Program-made: the position numbers and the translations under genes
In this document: positions 2,526-9,509 of the stretch, piece after piece
How positions within the stretch are numbered: the first letter of the stretch is position 1
Layout of the letters: each line of letters begins with the position of its first letter
Notes under the pieces: model-generated
What the model saw: only the letters and a program-made list of their open reading frames with translations
The model's database searches: none
Told to the model about the DNA's origin: nothing
From: Comamonadaceae bacterium 2PF
GTDB lineage: Bacteria; Pseudomonadota; Gammaproteobacteria; Burkholderiales; Burkholderiaceae_C
Assembly: GCA_005502875.1 (NCBI GenBank)
Contig: SCMV01000012.1
Coordinates: 1-64,000, forward strand
DNA length: 64,000 nucleotides
Reading direction: 5' to 3'

Positions 2526-2602
2526 GCGGCTGTAGCTCAGTTGGATAGAGTACTTGGCTACGAACCAAGGGGTCGTGGGTTCGAATCCTGCCAGCCGCAC
2601 CA
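2526..2602 (+). tRNA. tRNA-Arg(ACG), copy 1
   Basis: This 77-nt cloverleaf has an acceptor stem GCGGCTG/CAGCCGC, D-arm with AGCTCAGTTGG, anticodon stem CTTGG/CCAAG with loop CTACGAA, T-arm containing GGTTCGAATCC, and an encoded 3' CCA. The anticodon ACG reads CGN arginine codons after A34 is deaminated to inosine. It is followed after 57 bases by an identical copy. Confidence 0.97.
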
Positions 2603-2659
2603 GAGAAACCCGTTCACATGCCGCTCCCTTTGTTGGGGTTCGGAGCACTGAACAACAAT

Positions 2660-2736
2660 GCGGCTGTAGCTCAGTTGGATAGAGTACTTGGCTACGAACC
2701 AAGGGGTCGTGGGTTCGAATCCTGCCAGCCGCACCA
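2660..2736 (+). tRNA. tRNA-Arg(ACG), copy 2
   Basis: Identical over all 77 nt to the copy at 2526-2602, including the encoded CCA. The flanking bases differ, so only the tRNA itself is repeated. Both appear to be co-transcribed from the promoter at 2483-2512 and end at the terminator at 2743. Confidence 0.97.
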
Positions 2737-2742
2737 ACATGC

Positions 2743-2775
2743 AAACCCACAGGTCACACGGCCTGTGGGTTTTTT
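2743..2775 (+). terminator. Rho-independent terminator of the tRNA-Arg operon
   Basis: An 11-bp stem AAACCCACAGG (2743-2753) pairs with CCTGTGGGTTT (2762-2772) and runs into a T tract. It lies seven bases after the second tRNA. Confidence 0.85.
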
Positions 2776-2811
2776 GTTGCCTGTTGCTGTTACCCGCTGG
2801 CTTGCCTGTTG

Positions 2812-3507
2812 TCAAACAGGACGCCTGGACAGGTAGCGTTTGAGCCACCACAACGCCAGCAGCGTCACCACGGCCCAGGCGGCGGCCATCGCGTACGTGC
2901 TCGCATCCGGGTTGCGCCAGGCCTCTTTGAGTTGCTCCAGGAAGAACGACAGCACCACGGTGCCCGGCAACAGCCCGAAGAAGGTGCCCAGCACGTAGTC
3001 GCGCAAGCGCACCCGCAAGGCACCGGCCGCCAGGTTGACGACCATGAATGGCGCCACCGGCATGAAACGCACCAGCGCCATCGTGACAAAGCCGCGCTGC
3101 TTGAGGTGCGTGTCCAGCAAGCGCAGGCGCCCGCTGGCGAAACGGTCCATGCCTTGAGCGCCCGTGAAACGCCCAAAACCATAGGCCACCGTGGCGCCCG
3201 CCACCATGCCCAGCAACGAGTACGCCATGCCAGGCCAGGGGCCGAACACCAAGGTGCCCACGCTGATGAGGGCCAGCACGGGCACGGCCATGAGCACCAT
3301 CAACACGTAACCGCCGACCACCGCCACGGGCCCCAGTGGCTGCGCCAGCAACCAGGCACCATGGCGGCTCAGCGCTTGAGGGGACATGTGCTGCTGCCAA
3401 GCCGGGTCCTGCCAGGCCAGCATCAGCCCGACCAGCACCACGCCATAGGCACCCAGCAACAACCAGCGCATCCACGGCAGGGGACGACTGGGTTCTTCGA
3501 CACGCAC
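2812..3507 (-). CDS. TVP38/TMEM64 (VTT/DedA-like) family membrane protein
   Basis: About 231 residues with several hydrophobic segments: RWLLLGAYGVVLVGLML near the N-terminus, VLMVLMAVPVLALISVGTLV, the conserved core with GFGRFTG and RFMPVAPFMVVNLAAGA, and a final segment WAVVTLLALWWL. The core matches the VTT (SNARE-associated) domain of the TVP38/TMEM64 family, which is related to DedA proteins and implicated in lipid scrambling or transport; no substrate can be assigned. The GTG at 3507 is chosen because GGAG lies six bases upstream; a TTG at 3522 has no ribosome site and abuts a GC hairpin (3523-3542). It follows the LOV kinase gene on the same strand with a gap of about 150 bases. Confidence 0.8.
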   Translation of the reverse strand: MRVEEPSRPLPWMRWLLLGAYGVVLVGLMLAWQDPAWQQHMSPQALSRHGAWLLAQPLGPVAVVGGYVLMVLMAVPVLALISVGTLVFGPWPGMAYSLLGMVAGATVAYGFGRFTGAQGMDRFASGRLRLLDTHLKQRGFVTMALVRFMPVAPFMVVNLAAGALRVRLRDYVLGTFFGLLPGTVVLSFFLEQLKEAWRNPDASTYAMAAAWAVVTLLALWWLKRYLSRRPV

Positions 3508-3522
3508 TTGCAACTCCAACAA

Positions 3523-3542
3523 GGGGCGGCCCGATCCGCCCC
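3523..3542 (-). other. GC hairpin just upstream of the TVP38-family gene
   Basis: GGGGCGG (3523-3529) and CCGCCCC (3536-3542) form a perfect 7-bp stem with a 6-nt loop, ending a few bases before the GGAG ribosome site of the next gene. On the minus strand it is followed by TTGTTGG rather than a T run. It may act as a weak terminator or attenuator between the kinase and this gene; that role is inference. Confidence 0.4.
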
Positions 3543-3656
3543 GACAACGTTGACCTTCGGGATGCCGGATCTTGAACCACTTGCTCGGTGGCGTCAGCCG
3601 GGCAGGCCCGGGGTCGTGGCCCTGCCCCCTTCATTCCGGGGGGCGTTCAACGTCAA

Positions 3657-6419
3657 TCAGGTCGACGCGACATCCTCGTCGCAGCCCTCCCGGGCCTCCT
3701 GGGGCGCGCCCAAGGTGGGCAGCCACAACGTCACCGTGGTGCCCACGCCGCGCTCGCTGCTCAGGCTCACCTGCCCGCCATGGAGCTCGACGATTTCCTT
3801 GACGATGGTCATGCCCAGCCCAGTGCCAGGGATCTTGCCCGAGGTGTCCGCGCGGAAGAACCGGTCGAACACCTTGCCCAGCTCCTCCGGCGTCATGCCC
3901 AGGCCCTGGTCGTTGATGCGGATGCCGCACTCCAGTTTGCCGGCGCGGTCGCGCCAGACCAGGTCCAGGGAGATCTCGCCGCCATCGGGTGAGTACTTGT
4001 AGGCGTTGGACAGCACGTTGGTGATGGCCAGCGACAGCTTCTCGCGATCCGCATCGACCGCGATGGGCTCGGCTGGCAGGCTCACCTCCACCTTGCGGGC
4101 GTCGTTGTGCATGAGCAGCCCCGCCACGGTGGCCTCGATGATCGGCTGCAACTGCAGGCGTTCGCGCTTGAAGTCCTTGCCCCGACGTGATTCGATGCGG
4201 GCCAGGTCCAGCAGCTCGTTGACCAGGTTGATGAGCACCGAGGCCTGCCTGTGGATGGTCGAGAGCATGTCGTTTCGACGCTCGTCCGTGAACTGCCGCT
4301 TGAGCAACAGCTCCGTGAAACCGAAGATGCTGACCATGGGCGTTCTCAACTCGTGCGCCGCCATGGCCAGGAACTCGCTCTTCATGCGATCGACTTCCTG
4401 CTCGTGCGTGATGTCCCGGAAGTACATCACCGTCTCGTTGTCTTGCTCGTCCTGGCGCACACGTCGCAACAAGGTGCGCGTGCAGGGGGTGTGCAGGTGC
4501 AGCACCTCCCTGGTCGCTGCGGCAGCGGTGTCGCCCTCGCCGGTGGCCACGACACCGCCGTCGGCATCGAGCACCTCCCGCGAGCGGCATCGCTCGAGCA
4601 ACTGCTCCTCGAACACCGACAGCGACTGCCCCACCAGGTCGGCGGCGAGCATGCCCGTCATGCGCTCGAAAGCCGGGTTGACGATGCTCACCTCGCCCCG
4701 CTTGTCGAGCACCACGAAACCGTCCGGGCTCAACTCGAAGACCGCGTTGAGCCGCTCCGTGCGCAGGTGCAGCACCTGCTCGGCAGCGATCCGGTCTGTG
4801 ATGTCGGTTGCGATGCCAACGTAGTGCGTCAACACCCCTTCCGAGCTGAGGACAGGCGAGATCGCCAGGTCGTTGTAGAACAGCTCGCCGCTCTTGCGGT
4901 AGTTGCGCACCACCACCTGGCAGGCGCGCCCCTCGCGGATGGCGTCCCGCATGACCGCGATGCCGGGCTGCTGCAGGTCGTCTCGCTGCAGCAATCGGCA
5001 GTTGTAGCCCAGCAGCTCGTGGGTCTCGTAGCCCGTGATCTGCTCGAACGCGTGGTTGGCATAAATCATCGGCTGGTTGGGCAAGGTCATCGAAACGATG
5101 ACCACCCCATCGGCAGACGAGGCGAGCGCGCGATCCCGCAACTCCAGCTCCTGCTCGGCCCACTTCGCGTCCGTGGTGTCGCGCACGATGAAGGTCTGGA
5201 TGAGCTCGTCGTCCACCATCGCGCGACTGGCCGAGACGGCCACCGGGAAACTCACGCCCTCGTTGCGCCGCCCGGTGCTCTCATGCCCGATGACGCGGTT
5301 GGAGAACCCACAGGTGTTGAACCAGTCGTCCAGGCTGCCATTTCCCAGCGACGGCAGCACCAACTGGATGGGCTGCCCGATCAACGATTCGATGGGCTGC
5401 CCAAAGATGCTGGTGACCGCCTGGTTGCACCAGCGCACCAGGCCCTGGCTGTCGACCATGAGGATGGCGTCGGGTGCGGTGTCCATGACCGCCTGGTTGC
5501 GCGACTGCGTGCGCTGCAAAGCCATGCCCATGTCCCGCGCCATCTCTCGGGCACGCATGCGCGTCGAGATCAACATGAGGTAGCCATGCAGGGCGGCCAG
5601 CGTGAAGAGCAGGCCCAGGCCACAGGCGATCCAGATGCCCGCCTGGCGCCCCAGGACTTCGTGCCAGGGCACGCTGACGGTTTCAGCCCACACGCGCAAC
5701 TTCAGGGCGCTGCCTGCCGCGTTCACCTGCACAGGTGCCGACCAGCCCGCCGGGGCCACCGCAGCCTGATCGGAATGTGCGTCCAGCCTCACCCGCAGTG
5801 AGACCTCGGTATCCCCAGCAACGCCTTGGGCGCCCCTGGCCTCGCCAAACAGCCAGTCGCGCCAGACCGGGATGATCACCCAGCCCCGAGCGGGAGATTC
5901 GAGTCGGGCGGCCAACAACCAGCCCCCCACGGCCTCAGGCCGCGCACCCAGGGCGCAAAACACGTGGCGCGCCTGAGCAGGCGCTCGTTGCAGGCAGGCA
6001 GCACCAGCGAAGGCGCTCGGCTCATCGAGGTCCAGCCTGCCACCCACCATGTCGGCGTCCAGGTCTTCGCTGCGCACCACCGTCACACCGCCCACTGACC
6101 AGGTGCCATTGAGCACGCCAGACAAGCGCACCTGTTCGCGGGTCCAATGGGCCACTTGATCGATCAGCGCTTGCTGCCGATCAAGCCGGGCTTGCACCGC
6201 CATTTGCTGCTGGTGAACCAGGGTCTGGAAAAAGCCTTGCTGCCTGTGCCGCTCGACCCACCACACGAGGCTGCCAGCCAGACCGGTCATGAGCAGCCCC
6301 ACCAGCACGATCGCGATCAGGGCCTGGGACCTGGGGATGCGCCCCGTCCAGCGCTCAAGGCGATCCAGCGCCTTCAACAGCGAGGGCGGCAGGGGCTGAT
6401 GACCAGGTTGGTCGGCCAT
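3657..6419 (-). CDS. Hybrid PAS-LOV-PAS sensor histidine kinase (putative blue-light sensor)
   Basis: A 920-residue membrane kinase. Transmembrane segments at about 34-54 and 262-284 flank an extracytoplasmic domain. Three PAS-type domains follow at about 305-420, 425-545 and 556-675, then HisKA with the phospho-acceptor His689 in AAHELRTP, and an ATPase domain with N box NVLSNAYKYS, DQGLGM and GTGLGM. The second PAS carries the LOV signature GYNCRLLQ with Cys474, the residue that forms the flavin adduct in LOV photoreceptors, plus RNYRKSG and FYND that match the flavin-contacting Asn positions. The normally conserved Gln of the last LOV strand is Ala537 (YVGIATDIT). A CheY-like receiver gene lies 33 bases upstream, presumably the cognate regulator. 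Light sensing is inference from the motif; kinase identity is secure. Confidence 0.9.
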   Translation of the reverse strand: MADQPGHQPLPPSLLKALDRLERWTGRIPRSQALIAIVLVGLLMTGLAGSLVWWVERHRQQGFFQTLVHQQQMAVQARLDRQQALIDQVAHWTREQVRLSGVLNGTWSVGGVTVVRSEDLDADMVGGRLDLDEPSAFAGAACLQRAPAQARHVFCALGARPEAVGGWLLAARLESPARGWVIIPVWRDWLFGEARGAQGVAGDTEVSLRVRLDAHSDQAAVAPAGWSAPVQVNAAGSALKLRVWAETVSVPWHEVLGRQAGIWIACGLGLLFTLAALHGYLMLISTRMRAREMARDMGMALQRTQSRNQAVMDTAPDAILMVDSQGLVRWCNQAVTSIFGQPIESLIGQPIQLVLPSLGNGSLDDWFNTCGFSNRVIGHESTGRRNEGVSFPVAVSASRAMVDDELIQTFIVRDTTDAKWAEQELELRDRALASSADGVVIVSMTLPNQPMIYANHAFEQITGYETHELLGYNCRLLQRDDLQQPGIAVMRDAIREGRACQVVVRNYRKSGELFYNDLAISPVLSSEGVLTHYVGIATDITDRIAAEQVLHLRTERLNAVFELSPDGFVVLDKRGEVSIVNPAFERMTGMLAADLVGQSLSVFEEQLLERCRSREVLDADGGVVATGEGDTAAAATREVLHLHTPCTRTLLRRVRQDEQDNETVMYFRDITHEQEVDRMKSEFLAMAAHELRTPMVSIFGFTELLLKRQFTDERRNDMLSTIHRQASVLINLVNELLDLARIESRRGKDFKRERLQLQPIIEATVAGLLMHNDARKVEVSLPAEPIAVDADREKLSLAITNVLSNAYKYSPDGGEISLDLVWRDRAGKLECGIRINDQGLGMTPEELGKVFDRFFRADTSGKIPGTGLGMTIVKEIVELHGGQVSLSSERGVGTTVTLWLPTLGAPQEAREGCDEDVAST

Positions 6420-6452: not shown

Positions 6453-6830
6453 TCAGGCCGCAGCACTCACCATGGCCTCGACCCGCTCGATCAACTCCAA
6501 GGGGCTGAAAGGCTTGACCAGGTACGCATCCGCGCCCGCGGCTTCGCCTGCGGCCATGTCCGAGGCCTGCCCTCTGGCGGTGAGCATCACCACCTGGATC
6601 GACTGGAGCGCGGGATCCTGCTTGATGCGGGTGCAGACCTGGTATCCATCCAGCAGCCCGGGCATCATGACGTCCAGCAGCATGATGGAGGGCTTGATGG
6701 CACGGGCCATGTTCAGCCCGGTTTCGCCGTCGTTGGCCTCGTGAATTTCGAAGTCGCCGAACTCCAGCGTCATGCGGATGAGTTTGCAGATGTCAGGCTG
6801 GTCTTCAACGATGAGGATGCGGTGGGCCAT
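6453..6830 (-). CDS. Single-domain CheY-like response regulator
   Basis: A 125-residue stand-alone receiver domain. The acidic pocket is D10 (VED), the phospho-acceptor is D53 in IMLLDVMMPG, the switch Thr is T84 (MLTARG) and the conserved lysine is K106 (LVKPFSP), so it should be phosphorylatable. There is no output domain. It lies directly upstream of the LOV histidine kinase with a 33-base gap and downstream of the PAS protein, suggesting it relays phosphate from that kinase to an unidentified target or within a phosphorelay. Confidence 0.93.
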   Translation of the reverse strand: MAHRILIVEDQPDICKLIRMTLEFGDFEIHEANDGETGLNMARAIKPSIMLLDVMMPGLLDGYQVCTRIKQDPALQSIQVVMLTARGQASDMAAGEAAGADAYLVKPFSPLELIERVEAMVSAAA

Positions 6831-6894: not shown

Positions 6895-8025
6895 TCAAGG
6901 CGCCTTCACTGCGGCGGGTGGCGTCGCTTCGCTGCCCTTGGCACGCCGAGACATGCTGCGGGTCAACAGTTCCGACATGTCGCGGGCGTAGCGATGCGCC
7001 TGCTCGACCGAGAGCTGGGCATCCTGGGTGCTGGGTGCGCCAGCGGGCAACTCGAGCACGAAGTCCACCGAGTCGAACTCGTCCTCGATGCGCACGCAGC
7101 CGCCGTGCTGCTCCAGGATGCGCTGGCTCAACGCCAGGCCAATGCCTTGACGCGCCTCACCAGGCTTGGCCGAGTCGCCCACACCGAAAGGAACGAAGGC
7201 ACCGCGCCGTTCATGTTGGGAGACAAACAGCCCCTGGTTGCGTGCCCGCACCATGACGCGCGTGCCCACGGCCTGGATGGACAGCTCGATCAGGTCACCC
7301 GACTGCGCGCTGCGCACCGACTGCTCCAGGTACTCCGACATCGCCTTGCTCAGCCAGTGAGCGCTGCCGTAGACGGCTGGCAACTCGTCGCTCAGGCCAT
7401 TGGCAGACAGGGTGATGTTGCGGCCCCTGGCCATCGGCATGACCTCGCCCACGGCGCGGCGCAGCAGGTCGGACAGCAAGATGCGCTCGTCGCGCTGGAT
7501 GGCGCTCTCACCGAACACCGACACCAGGTCACGCAACTTGCCCAGCTTCAACGACAAGTTGCTGGCGTCCTCGACCAAGGCCGCCAGCTCGCCGGTTGCG
7601 CCTTGCTGCTGCACGATCTGAGCGATCTTGGGCAGTTTCTGGGCCAGGGCCTCGATGGGATGCGCCATCTCTGCCTCGATGTAGCCGATGAGGTTTTCCA
7701 GCGCTTGCGAGTACCAGCGCTCCTCGGAGACGTTGTTGAGCACCACCATCAGGTCGTTGCCAACCGGGGCACCGATCACCGCAGCACGGATGCTGTCGGG
7801 GTGGGCCTCTTGCGTGGTGAGCTCGAAATGAAACGGCAGCTTGAGCATGCCCTGCCCGGCCGCCTTGACGGTGCGGTCGGCCACCGGGTCCATCATGACC
7901 TGCCCCAGCATCACCGGCGTCATCTGAACCGCAGCCTTGTTGGCGTAGCGCACCACGCCGTCGCGCTGCACCCAGACCACGCCACTTTTGACCTGATCGA
8001 ACAACAGTCTGAAGGCTTCGTTCAT
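6895..8025 (-). CDS. PAS-domain protein with degenerate histidine-kinase core
   Basis: A 376-residue soluble protein starting at an ATG preceded by GAGGAC. An N-terminal PAS-like region (residues about 5-120, LLFDQVKSGVVWVQRDGVVRYANKAA) is followed by a helical segment with MAHPIEALAQ where a dimerisation/H box would sit, and a C-terminal ATPase-like fold with a recognisable G2 box (GIGLALSQ). The usual HELR-P sequence and the Asn of the N box are not seen, so autokinase activity is doubtful. It may be a pseudokinase or phosphatase partner for the neighbouring receiver. Position in a run HTH protein, PAS protein, CheY-like regulator, LOV kinase suggests a shared pathway. Domain calls are from motif reading only. 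Confidence 0.75.
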   Translation of the reverse strand: MNEAFRLLFDQVKSGVVWVQRDGVVRYANKAAVQMTPVMLGQVMMDPVADRTVKAAGQGMLKLPFHFELTTQEAHPDSIRAAVIGAPVGNDLMVVLNNVSEERWYSQALENLIGYIEAEMAHPIEALAQKLPKIAQIVQQQGATGELAALVEDASNLSLKLGKLRDLVSVFGESAIQRDERILLSDLLRRAVGEVMPMARGRNITLSANGLSDELPAVYGSAHWLSKAMSEYLEQSVRSAQSGDLIELSIQAVGTRVMVRARNQGLFVSQHERRGAFVPFGVGDSAKPGEARQGIGLALSQRILEQHGGCVRIEDEFDSVDFVLELPAGAPSTQDAQLSVEQAHRYARDMSELLTRSMSRRAKGSEATPPAAVKAP

Positions 8026-8050
8026 GGTGGCGTCCTCGGATTTCTCAGGG

Positions 8051-8755
8051 TCAAGACACTCGTTGATGGAGCAACCAGCGCCCCACGCGCACGGCCACAC
8101 CCTCGGGCGAGACAGGCAACTGCATCAACTCAGCGCTGGCCGGCAAACCGCCGCGGCGCTTCAACTCGGCGTCATCCAGGTGGCTCAGCGCCAGGATGCG
8201 CATGCCGGCGATCGACTCGCACCGCTCCAGGGTGCGCAGCATCACCAGGCCATCCATGCCGGGCAGCTCCAGGTTGGTGATGAGCAGGTCGGGTGCTTTC
8301 TGGCCGATTTGCAGCAGCGCGAGGTAGCCTGTCTCGGCAAAGCGCAGCTCGATGCTCGGCAAAAAGGGCGCCAGGGCCTGCTCGCAACGCACCTGCCAGA
8401 TGGGGTTGTCCGCCACCAGCAAGACGTCGCGCGGGCGCAGGGCCGAGCCGGCGGTGTGAGCCGGGGGCTGCTCCCCTTCGTGCGCCACCAACACCTGGGC
8501 ATCGACGGGCTCACGGTTTCGCGCTGGCGAGCGCGCAGAACGGGCAAGCGGCTCGCCGCCCAAGCCCGTCGACAAAGCGAGCGCTTCCACCGCGTTGTGG
8601 GGGATTCGGCGGTGCCCGCCTGGTGTGCGCGCAGCCGGCAGGATGTCGGCCTCCACCCACAGCTGCACCGTCCGCAATGACACGCCAAGGCGCTGCGCAG
8701 CCTCTCTGGTGGTGAGCATGCGGGAACCGGGGCCCAGGGGGATCACTTGTGACAT
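8051..8755 (-). CDS. MerR/BldC-type helix-turn-helix protein with pseudo-receiver domain
   Basis: A 234-residue protein. The ATG at 8755 is chosen for its TTTGGAG ribosome site nine bases upstream; an in-frame ATG at 8812 lacks one. Residues about 12-60 form a winged helix-turn-helix of the excisionase/MerR type (MLTTREAAQRLGVSLRTVQLW, then GGHRRI). The C-terminal half resembles a receiver domain (DVLLVADNPIW, then LLITNLELPGMDG), but the phospho-acceptor Asp is replaced by Asn in ITNLELPG, so phosphorylation of this domain is unlikely. It is the first gene of the minus-strand sensory cluster and divergent from greB, and could be the cluster's DNA-binding output. Function inferred from domains and position. 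Confidence 0.78.
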   Translation of the reverse strand: MSQVIPLGPGSRMLTTREAAQRLGVSLRTVQLWVEADILPAARTPGGHRRIPHNAVEALALSTGLGGEPLARSARSPARNREPVDAQVLVAHEGEQPPAHTAGSALRPRDVLLVADNPIWQVRCEQALAPFLPSIELRFAETGYLALLQIGQKAPDLLITNLELPGMDGLVMLRTLERCESIAGMRILALSHLDDAELKRRGGLPASAELMQLPVSPEGVAVRVGRWLLHQRVS

Positions 8756-8945
8756 CTTCGCGAACTCCAAAGCGCTTGCCTGATCTGCACTTGTTTTCGG
8801 CAGCGGTTTCATTTTTGCAAGTTGAATCGAGCTCAGGAACGTCCAACGACGCACAAACATGGGGCCGCCGTGAACAAATGACGCTCCCACGCCCGCTCGC
8901 AGCTGCGCTGGCCCGATGCCCGAGGATTCGGCACAATCGCCGCCC

Positions 8946-9509
8946 ATGAGCAAGGCTTTCACCAAGGAACCCGACAGCGAGGACGACGACGACCTCGCCC
9001 TGCCCCCGCTGCCAGCGGGCACGCGCAACTACATGACGCCGCAGGGCTACCAGCGCCTGCGCACCGAGCTGCTCAACCTGATCGACATCGAGCGTCCGAA
9101 GATCGTGGAAATCGTGCACTGGGCCGCTTCGAATGGCGACCGCTCCGAAAATGGCGACTACATCTACGGCAAGAAGCGCCTGCGCGAGATCGACCGCCGC
9201 ATCCGCTTTTTGACCAAGCGCCTGGACATCGCCGAGGTGGCCGACCCCAGCCAGCACCACGGACGAGACCAGGTCTTCTTCGGCGCCACCGTCACCTATG
9301 AGAACCAGGCAGGTGTGGCGCGCACCATCACCATCAAGGGCATCGACGAGGCCGACGCGCTGCAAGGCGAAGTCAGCTGGGTCTCGCCGATCGCCCGCGC
9401 CTTGCTCAAGTCGCGCGAAGGCGACGAGGTCACGCTGATGACGCCGGGCGGCATCGAGAAAATCGAGGTGATCGAGGTGCGCTACCCGAAGCCGCAGACG
9501 GCGCACTGA
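8946..9509 (+). CDS. greB: Transcription elongation factor GreB
   Basis: 187 residues. GreB binds the RNA polymerase secondary channel and stimulates cleavage of backtracked transcripts. The N-terminal coiled coil holds the family signature YMTPQGYQRLRTELL and the acidic-tip region NGDRSENGDYIYGKKRLREID, and the C-terminal FKBP-like domain contains GEVSWVSPIARALLKSREGDEV. The GreB rather than GreA type is supported by YIYGKKRLREIDRRIRFL and by the acidic leader (DSEDDDD). The ATG at 8946 is preferred over an upstream in-frame ATG at 8916. It is convergent with spoT, as in many betaproteobacteria, with about 60 bases between the stops and no clear T-tract terminator. Confidence 0.95.
   Translation: MSKAFTKEPDSEDDDDLALPPLPAGTRNYMTPQGYQRLRTELLNLIDIERPKIVEIVHWAASNGDRSENGDYIYGKKRLREIDRRIRFLTKRLDIAEVADPSQHHGRDQVFFGATVTYENQAGVARTITIKGIDEADALQGEVSWVSPIARALLKSREGDEVTLMTPGGIEKIEVIEVRYPKPQTAH

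Follow-up and report, generated by a model that had tools for sequence, protein, structure and literature searches.

Can a LOV domain that lacks its conserved glutamine still act as the light sensor of a histidine kinase? The question is raised by a gene in a 64,000-nucleotide stretch of DNA from Comamonadaceae bacterium 2PF (contig SCMV01000012.1, positions 1 to 64,000; hereafter the window), in which a first-pass annotation had placed a LOV kinase at 3657–6419. The reading frame is confirmed, and the strand, which that annotation had not given, is minus. As judged from its sequence, the gene probably encodes a functional sensor histidine kinase of the glutamine-deficient LOV (LOV-ΔQ) type, located in a fixed four-gene cassette.

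Architecture and flavin pocket of the kinase

The kinase gene and its parts, all on the minus strand, are as follows.

3657–6419, minus: membrane PAS-LOV-PAS histidine kinase, 920 amino acids plus stop (Pfam: three PAS, HisKA, HATPase_c)
6264–6320, minus: predicted transmembrane segment 1, residues 34–52 (hydropathy scan)
5568–5624, minus: predicted transmembrane segment 2, residues 266–284 (hydropathy scan)
5160–5522, minus: PAS1, about residues 300–420 (Pfam PAS_8 at 307–361)
4770–5147, minus: LOV domain, which is PAS2, residues 425–550 (Pfam, and phmmer to solved LOV domains)
5067–5069, minus: Met451 codon ATG, equivalent to AsLOV2 Ile427 (codon read; offset from the cysteine)
4998–5000, minus: Cys474 codon TGC, the adduct cysteine (codon read directly)
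4902–4904, minus: Asn506 codon AAC, equivalent to AsLOV2 Asn482 (alignment and codon)
4872–4874, minus: Asn516 codon AAC, equivalent to AsLOV2 Asn492 (alignment and codon)
4809–4811, minus: Ala537 codon GCA, at the conserved-glutamine site (alignment and codon)
4410–4757, minus: PAS3, about residues 555–670 (Pfam PAS at 555–602)
4188–4385, minus: HisKA, residues 679–744 (Pfam 64.9 bits, above cut-off)
4353–4355, minus: phospho-accepting His689 codon CAC, within HisKA (codon read directly)
3714–4049, minus: HATPase_c, residues 791–902 (Pfam 92.6 bits, above cut-off)

A HisKA domain with its phospho-accepting histidine, followed by HATPase_c, identifies the protein as a sensor histidine kinase; it falls outside the YtvA family (NCBIfam NF052652), scoring 123.1 bits where 250 are needed. 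The residues between the two predicted transmembrane segments form a presumed periplasmic domain, where conservation is on the whole lower than elsewhere in the protein. A query of the window genome with the window LOV domain (E ≤ 1e-5) returned six matches; the other five are without the LOV cysteine motif, and the kinase is the sole LOV candidate found in its genome. Other photoreceptors were considered as a cause of LOV decay: the genome has one BLUF domain, no PHY domain was found in it, and no photosynthetic reaction-centre gene was found among 42 genus genomes, a picture that is not decisive.

The second of the three PAS domains is indeed the LOV domain. It carries the motif GYNCRLLQ with Cys474, in agreement with the GxNCRxLQ pattern around the adduct cysteine, together with both flavin-ring asparagines, Asn506 and Asn516, and it is without the glutamine of strand Iβ. 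Its best PDB match is 7a6p (E 6.5e-31 over 112 residues, from the best 60 of 138 distinct sequences found by phmmer at E ≤ 0.001). The three alignments inspected are all ungapped and set Ala537 opposite the glutamine of solved LOV domains (giqrdvt in 7a6p, giatdit in the window), which bears out the replacement that had been proposed. That the glutamine lies at a shifted place, or that another residue substitutes for it by position, is scarcely credible and was rejected: no support was found for it, the alignment to solved LOV domains is ungapped through the DIT motif, and 11 orthologs have glutamine at the same column. By the criterion of PMC9098866, the domain holds eight of the nine signature residues, the deviation being Leu476 for phenylalanine. 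Alanine (GCN) and glutamine (CAA/CAG) codons are two base changes apart. A sequencing or assembly error behind Ala537 is unlikely, as seven further orthologs, taken from separate genomes, have the same alanine. A structure prediction of the window LOV domain with L007, L008, L009 and L012 was set aside (mean pLDDT 50.2, pTM 0.37).

Relation to known LOV-ΔQ proteins

The first-pass annotation started from the premise that glutamine is needed to couple adduct formation to output, which is out of date. Dietler et al. 2022 (PMC9098866) described about 350 natural LOV-ΔQ proteins, selected by the presence of at least eight of nine conserved LOV residues and the absence of the glutamine, and named leucine and isoleucine as its commonest natural replacements. 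Without the glutamine, YF1, NmPAL and AsLOV2 still signal, often with attenuation and with exceptions (PMC9098866). Specifically, most replacements in a YF1 reporter assay, alanine included, left light signalling "largely unimpaired", and YF1 fails with proline, histidine, tryptophan, tyrosine or arginine at this site; YtvA Q123A is slightly impaired, and replacing the glutamine moves the absorbance about 8 nm blueward (PMC9098866). A natural ΔQ diguanylate cyclase from M. loti, a LOV-GGDEF protein with methionine for glutamine, is repressed by blue light (PMC9098866). Speaking against a working sensor in the window, the response amplitude of purified YF1 Q123L is about half that of YF1 (PMC9098866).

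With eight of nine residues and the glutamine absent, the window protein satisfies this filter too, and as such is a new example of a described class, not the first of its kind; that the glutamine is dispensable has already been published, so the protein does not break with LOV biology. Set against the LOV-ΔQ proteins in the available portion of PMC9098866, it is distinguished by its alanine, its membrane PAS-LOV-PAS kinase architecture and a methionine at the Ile427 site; it or a near relative may already be contained in Supplementary Data 3 of that paper. The arrangement of a LOV domain upstream of HisKA-HATPase is shared with the YtvA-based kinase YF1, of which the Q123A variant directly mimics the Ala537 site. 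YF1 (described in part in PMC9098866) is engineered and soluble with a single LOV domain, whereas the window kinase is transmembrane and has two further PAS domains. The closest solved LOV sequence among the 60 of 138 matches listed, 7a6p, is PpSB2-LOV (PMC13322254) of Pseudomonas putida, which, unlike the window kinase, is a short LOV protein without an effector and has kept its glutamine. The open-licence literature yielded nothing on LOV proteins of Aquabacterium, and no work on ΔQ LOV domains beyond Dietler et al. was noticed there.

A conserved four-gene cassette

Three further genes complete the cassette.

6453–6830, minus: stand-alone receiver, 125 amino acids, likely kinase partner
6895–8100, minus: PAS-HATPase protein without a HisKA match (start given is that of the longest frame; translation may begin further downstream)
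8051–9028, minus: helix-turn-helix and receiver-like protein (overlaps the GreB frame, so that its true start is probably later)

The gene order of the cassette, along with the adjoining GreB and SpoT genes, is the same in all 15 other loci examined, out of 19 other orthologs, and these loci include glutamine, alanine and threonine forms of the kinase alike. Conservation of the catalytic residues differs among the three neighbours. The phospho-aspartate of the lone receiver is kept in 16 of 16 proteins compared, window included, whereas 5 of 16 PAS-HATPase proteins retain the histidine in their AHPIEAL stretch, and the aspartate site of the helix-turn-helix protein is occupied by asparagine in 11 of 16 (the window among them), histidine in three, threonine in one and aspartate in one. 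These counts single out the lone receiver, and not the other two proteins, as the catalytic partner: kinase and receiver look like a catalytic pair, and the remaining two look like degenerate two-component proteins that were retained for another role. The PAS-HATPase protein is a probable pseudokinase, and the helix-turn-helix protein is a putative conserved pseudo-receiver regulator. Nearby, the window holds two tRNA-Arg (ACG) genes on the plus strand, at 2526–2602 and 2660–2736; the minus-strand frame 2463–2750 and the 3' part of the minus-strand frame 2558–3634, which overlap them, are probably not genes.

Glutamine loss in the genus and the family

Aquabacterium parvum B6 encodes a protein 94% identical to the window kinase (the same ortholog as L016), and we infer that the window bacterium belongs to an Aquabacterium-like genus. 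Orthologs were found in 20 of 42 genus genomes, window included, all of them scoring at least 919 bits against 486 for the next match; L032, which spans residues 7–738, and L033, which begins at residue 223, are incomplete. The glutamine column holds glutamine in 11 of the 20, alanine in eight and threonine in one; the cysteine is present in 18 and replaced by glycine in L028 and serine in L033. When the trait columns are left out of tree building, a main Ala clade (support 100/99) made up of seven alanine rows and L028 is nested among glutamine rows. An eighth alanine row, L031, which has kept the cysteine and has a long branch, falls outside this clade, yet a single origin of alanine is not rejected (AU p 0.131); the glutamine has therefore been lost once or twice within the genus, and two independent losses were set aside as a firm claim.

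The seven cysteine-bearing members of the main Ala clade all keep Asn473, the cysteine, Asn506, Asn516 and Gln478, and L028, within the same clade, is without the cysteine and Asn516. In L033, serine stands for the cysteine and cysteine for Asn516, and the glutamine is kept, an order of loss opposite to that of L028; its match starts at base 40 of its contig. In L028 and L034, the presumed periplasmic domain is mostly missing and the two membrane segments lie close together; L034 keeps the cysteine that L028 has lost.

At the level of the family, a 19-row LOV profile, which included several non-glutamine rows, matched at E ≤ 1e-24 in 136 of 399 genomes. Among the 150 matches listed, 93 have the cysteine and 91 the cysteine with both asparagines, 62 of them with glutamine and 29 with another residue (leucine 12, isoleucine 6, methionine 4, threonine 3, alanine 2 including the window, histidine 1 and valine 1); the eight-of-nine filter leaves 57 with glutamine and 22 without (n = 79). 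The figure of 29 of 91 is biased, as the profile seed favours window relatives: among the matches listed that have the cysteine and both asparagines, glutamine occurs in 17 of 37 at 150 bits or more, 45 of 52 at 110–150 bits and 0 of 2 below 110 bits. A weakly resolved 110-row tree gives at least 13 changes at the glutamine site among the 91 cysteine-bearing rows. In this family, the glutamine has been lost repeatedly while the other residues of the site stayed in place.

These losses invite an alternative, which we consider unlikely: the LOV domain still binds flavin and maybe forms the adduct, yet it has become uncoupled or is in decay, and the kinase responds instead to the periplasmic domain or to PAS1/PAS3. 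Glutamine loss would then mark the beginning of a path that ends in a PAS domain blind to light. In its favour, and against a working LOV-ΔQ sensor, glutamine is found in 0 of 19 cysteine-less domains as compared with 64 of 91 cysteine-bearing ones among the family matches listed at 110 bits or more, so that glutamine loss may precede blindness. At 95 bits or more, however, 9 of 57 cysteine-less domains among the matches listed (the L046–L176 sample) keep the glutamine, many of these cysteine-less domains probably being ordinary PAS domains. On the tree, the association comes down to three supported independent pairs, and those that differ all point the same way (median p 0.25); strong by Fisher test but with an underpowered tree test, it is a lead only. 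Nor is the order of losses fixed, given that L033 lost its cysteine with the glutamine kept, and the authors of PMC9098866 state that they have no evidence on which of the two residues was acquired first.

Constraint on the LOV domain

To see whether the ΔQ LOV domain is still under selection, 124 of its columns, from which sites 474 and 537 were excluded, were compared in branch length on a fixed tree with 472 columns of PAS1, PAS3 and the histidine kinase part, in a post hoc test with a Poisson approximation. The LOV/rest ratio is 0.65 outside the Ala clade (20 branches) and 0.68 inside the main Ala clade (13 branches); in this clade, though not in every ΔQ lineage, constraint on the domain matches that in the glutamine orthologs. 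The ratio rises to 1.62 in L028 (cysteine lost; P 8.7e-6) and 1.08 in L033 (cysteine lost, glutamine kept; P 0.0088), and constraint is weaker on both cysteine-less branches. It is also high on the Ala-clade stem, the branch of glutamine loss (1.19, P 0.048), and in L031 (1.36, P 2e-7), which is a counter-example with a fast ΔQ LOV domain despite its kept cysteine.

The fast stem, L031 and L028, a member of the Ala clade without the cysteine and Asn516, are the points on which the decay alternative draws, and the first two count against a working LOV-ΔQ sensor; fast evolution on the stem and in L031 would be expected from relaxation or from adaptation. The ratios inside the clade speak the other way, and so does domain identity: when the seven Ala rows are compared with one another, the LOV domain is among the two most conserved of the four cytoplasmic domains in 20 of 21 pairs, the exception being L020–L032, where it is third. 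It is last of the four for L028 against L020 and against L032. As LOV constraint inside the Ala clade equals that in glutamine orthologs, the first-pass suggestion that the kinase is light-responsive by an alternative route appears to fit the evolutionary evidence better than the suggestion, made alongside it, that it is insensitive to light.

A methionine at the Ile427 site

Within residues 420–555, four LOV positions (451, 469, 483 and 537) share no residue between the seven cysteine-bearing Ala-clade rows and ten glutamine rows, a contrast that leaves out L028 and L033 as cysteine-less and L031 as outside the clade. Counted in the same way, PAS1 has 4 such positions, PAS3 has 0, the histidine kinase part 3 and the N-terminal part 16; four positions are therefore no excess in themselves. 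At site 451, all seven Ala-clade rows have methionine and all ten glutamine rows isoleucine or valine; L028, L031 and L033 have isoleucine. Among the family matches listed, methionine occupies the Ile427 site in 1 of 62 glutamine domains and 2 of 29 non-glutamine domains, the latter two being the window and its genus relative.

In AsLOV2, I427M speeds dark recovery (0.050 vs 0.013 s-1), lowers photoactivation (0.018 vs 0.048 s-1) and shifts the midpoint potential from −278 to −260 mV (PMC11151830), and Q513L slows recovery (6.6e-4 vs 1.43e-2 s-1; PMC9098866). Because the two changes pull in opposite directions, Ala537 and Met451 may offset each other in dark recovery. Against this idea, the slowing in AsLOV2 is known from leucine and not alanine at the glutamine site, L031 has the alanine without the methionine, and one or two evolutionary events are involved; the slowing on glutamine loss is tenfold in YF1 and only 1.2-fold in NmPAL (PMC9098866). 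It is possible, and held here tentatively, that the changes from glutamine to alanine and from isoleucine or valine to methionine are a compensating pair that would give near-normal kinetics with a shifted redox potential, and that the single-genus series (glutamine with cysteine; alanine with cysteine and methionine; threonine without cysteine and with isoleucine, in one orthologous gene) records a change of chemistry followed by blindness.

The same pair of residues can be read as the mark of a sensor in which the flavin mainly reports redox state and light is secondary, alanine and methionine near the flavin raising its tendency to be reduced. The potential and photoactivation of I427M point that way, as do the methionine in all seven cysteine-bearing clade members and, weakly, the finding of no reaction-centre gene in the 42 genus genomes; a flavin redox sensor would, moreover, equally be under purifying selection, which takes weight from the constraint argument for a light sensor. 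Yet Cys474 is kept in all seven, and a pure redox sensor needs none. The published potential shift is small and known for methionine at Ile427, not for alanine at the glutamine site, and every AsLOV2 methionine variant tested still forms the adduct (PMC11151830). A primarily redox-sensing kinase is thus quite improbable.

A model for signalling and its implications

The available data are most compatible with a working LOV-ΔQ kinase. Its domain retains eight of nine signature residues, its best solved relatives are LOV domains, and the cysteine persists in 18 of 20 orthologs; the LOV domain stays constrained inside the Ala clade and is fast in L028, where the cysteine is gone; the cassette with GreB and SpoT is unbroken in every other locus examined; and both YF1 with alanine and the methionine-bearing diguanylate cyclase respond to light without the glutamine (PMC9098866), the former also speaking against decay. 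In such a kinase, blue light would excite a bound flavin, Cys474 would add to its C4a and N5 would become protonated, as suggested by the conserved site. Water in the space vacated by the glutamine could then relay the change in hydrogen bonding to strand Iβ with its DIT motif, a mechanism proposed for glutamine-free LOV domains in PMC9098866 and carried over here by analogy. From DIT, the signal would pass through PAS3 to His689 and on to the adjoining receiver, a presumed partner by adjacency, and Met451 may offset a dark recovery slowed by the loss of the glutamine.

What is new here is the history of the family: a within-genus series of glutamine, alanine and cysteine-less forms of one gene at one syntenic locus. 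The Ala537/Met451 pair offers a concrete and cheap mutagenesis test, and the natural series makes both the order and the cost of losing the glutamine and the cysteine testable in native proteins.
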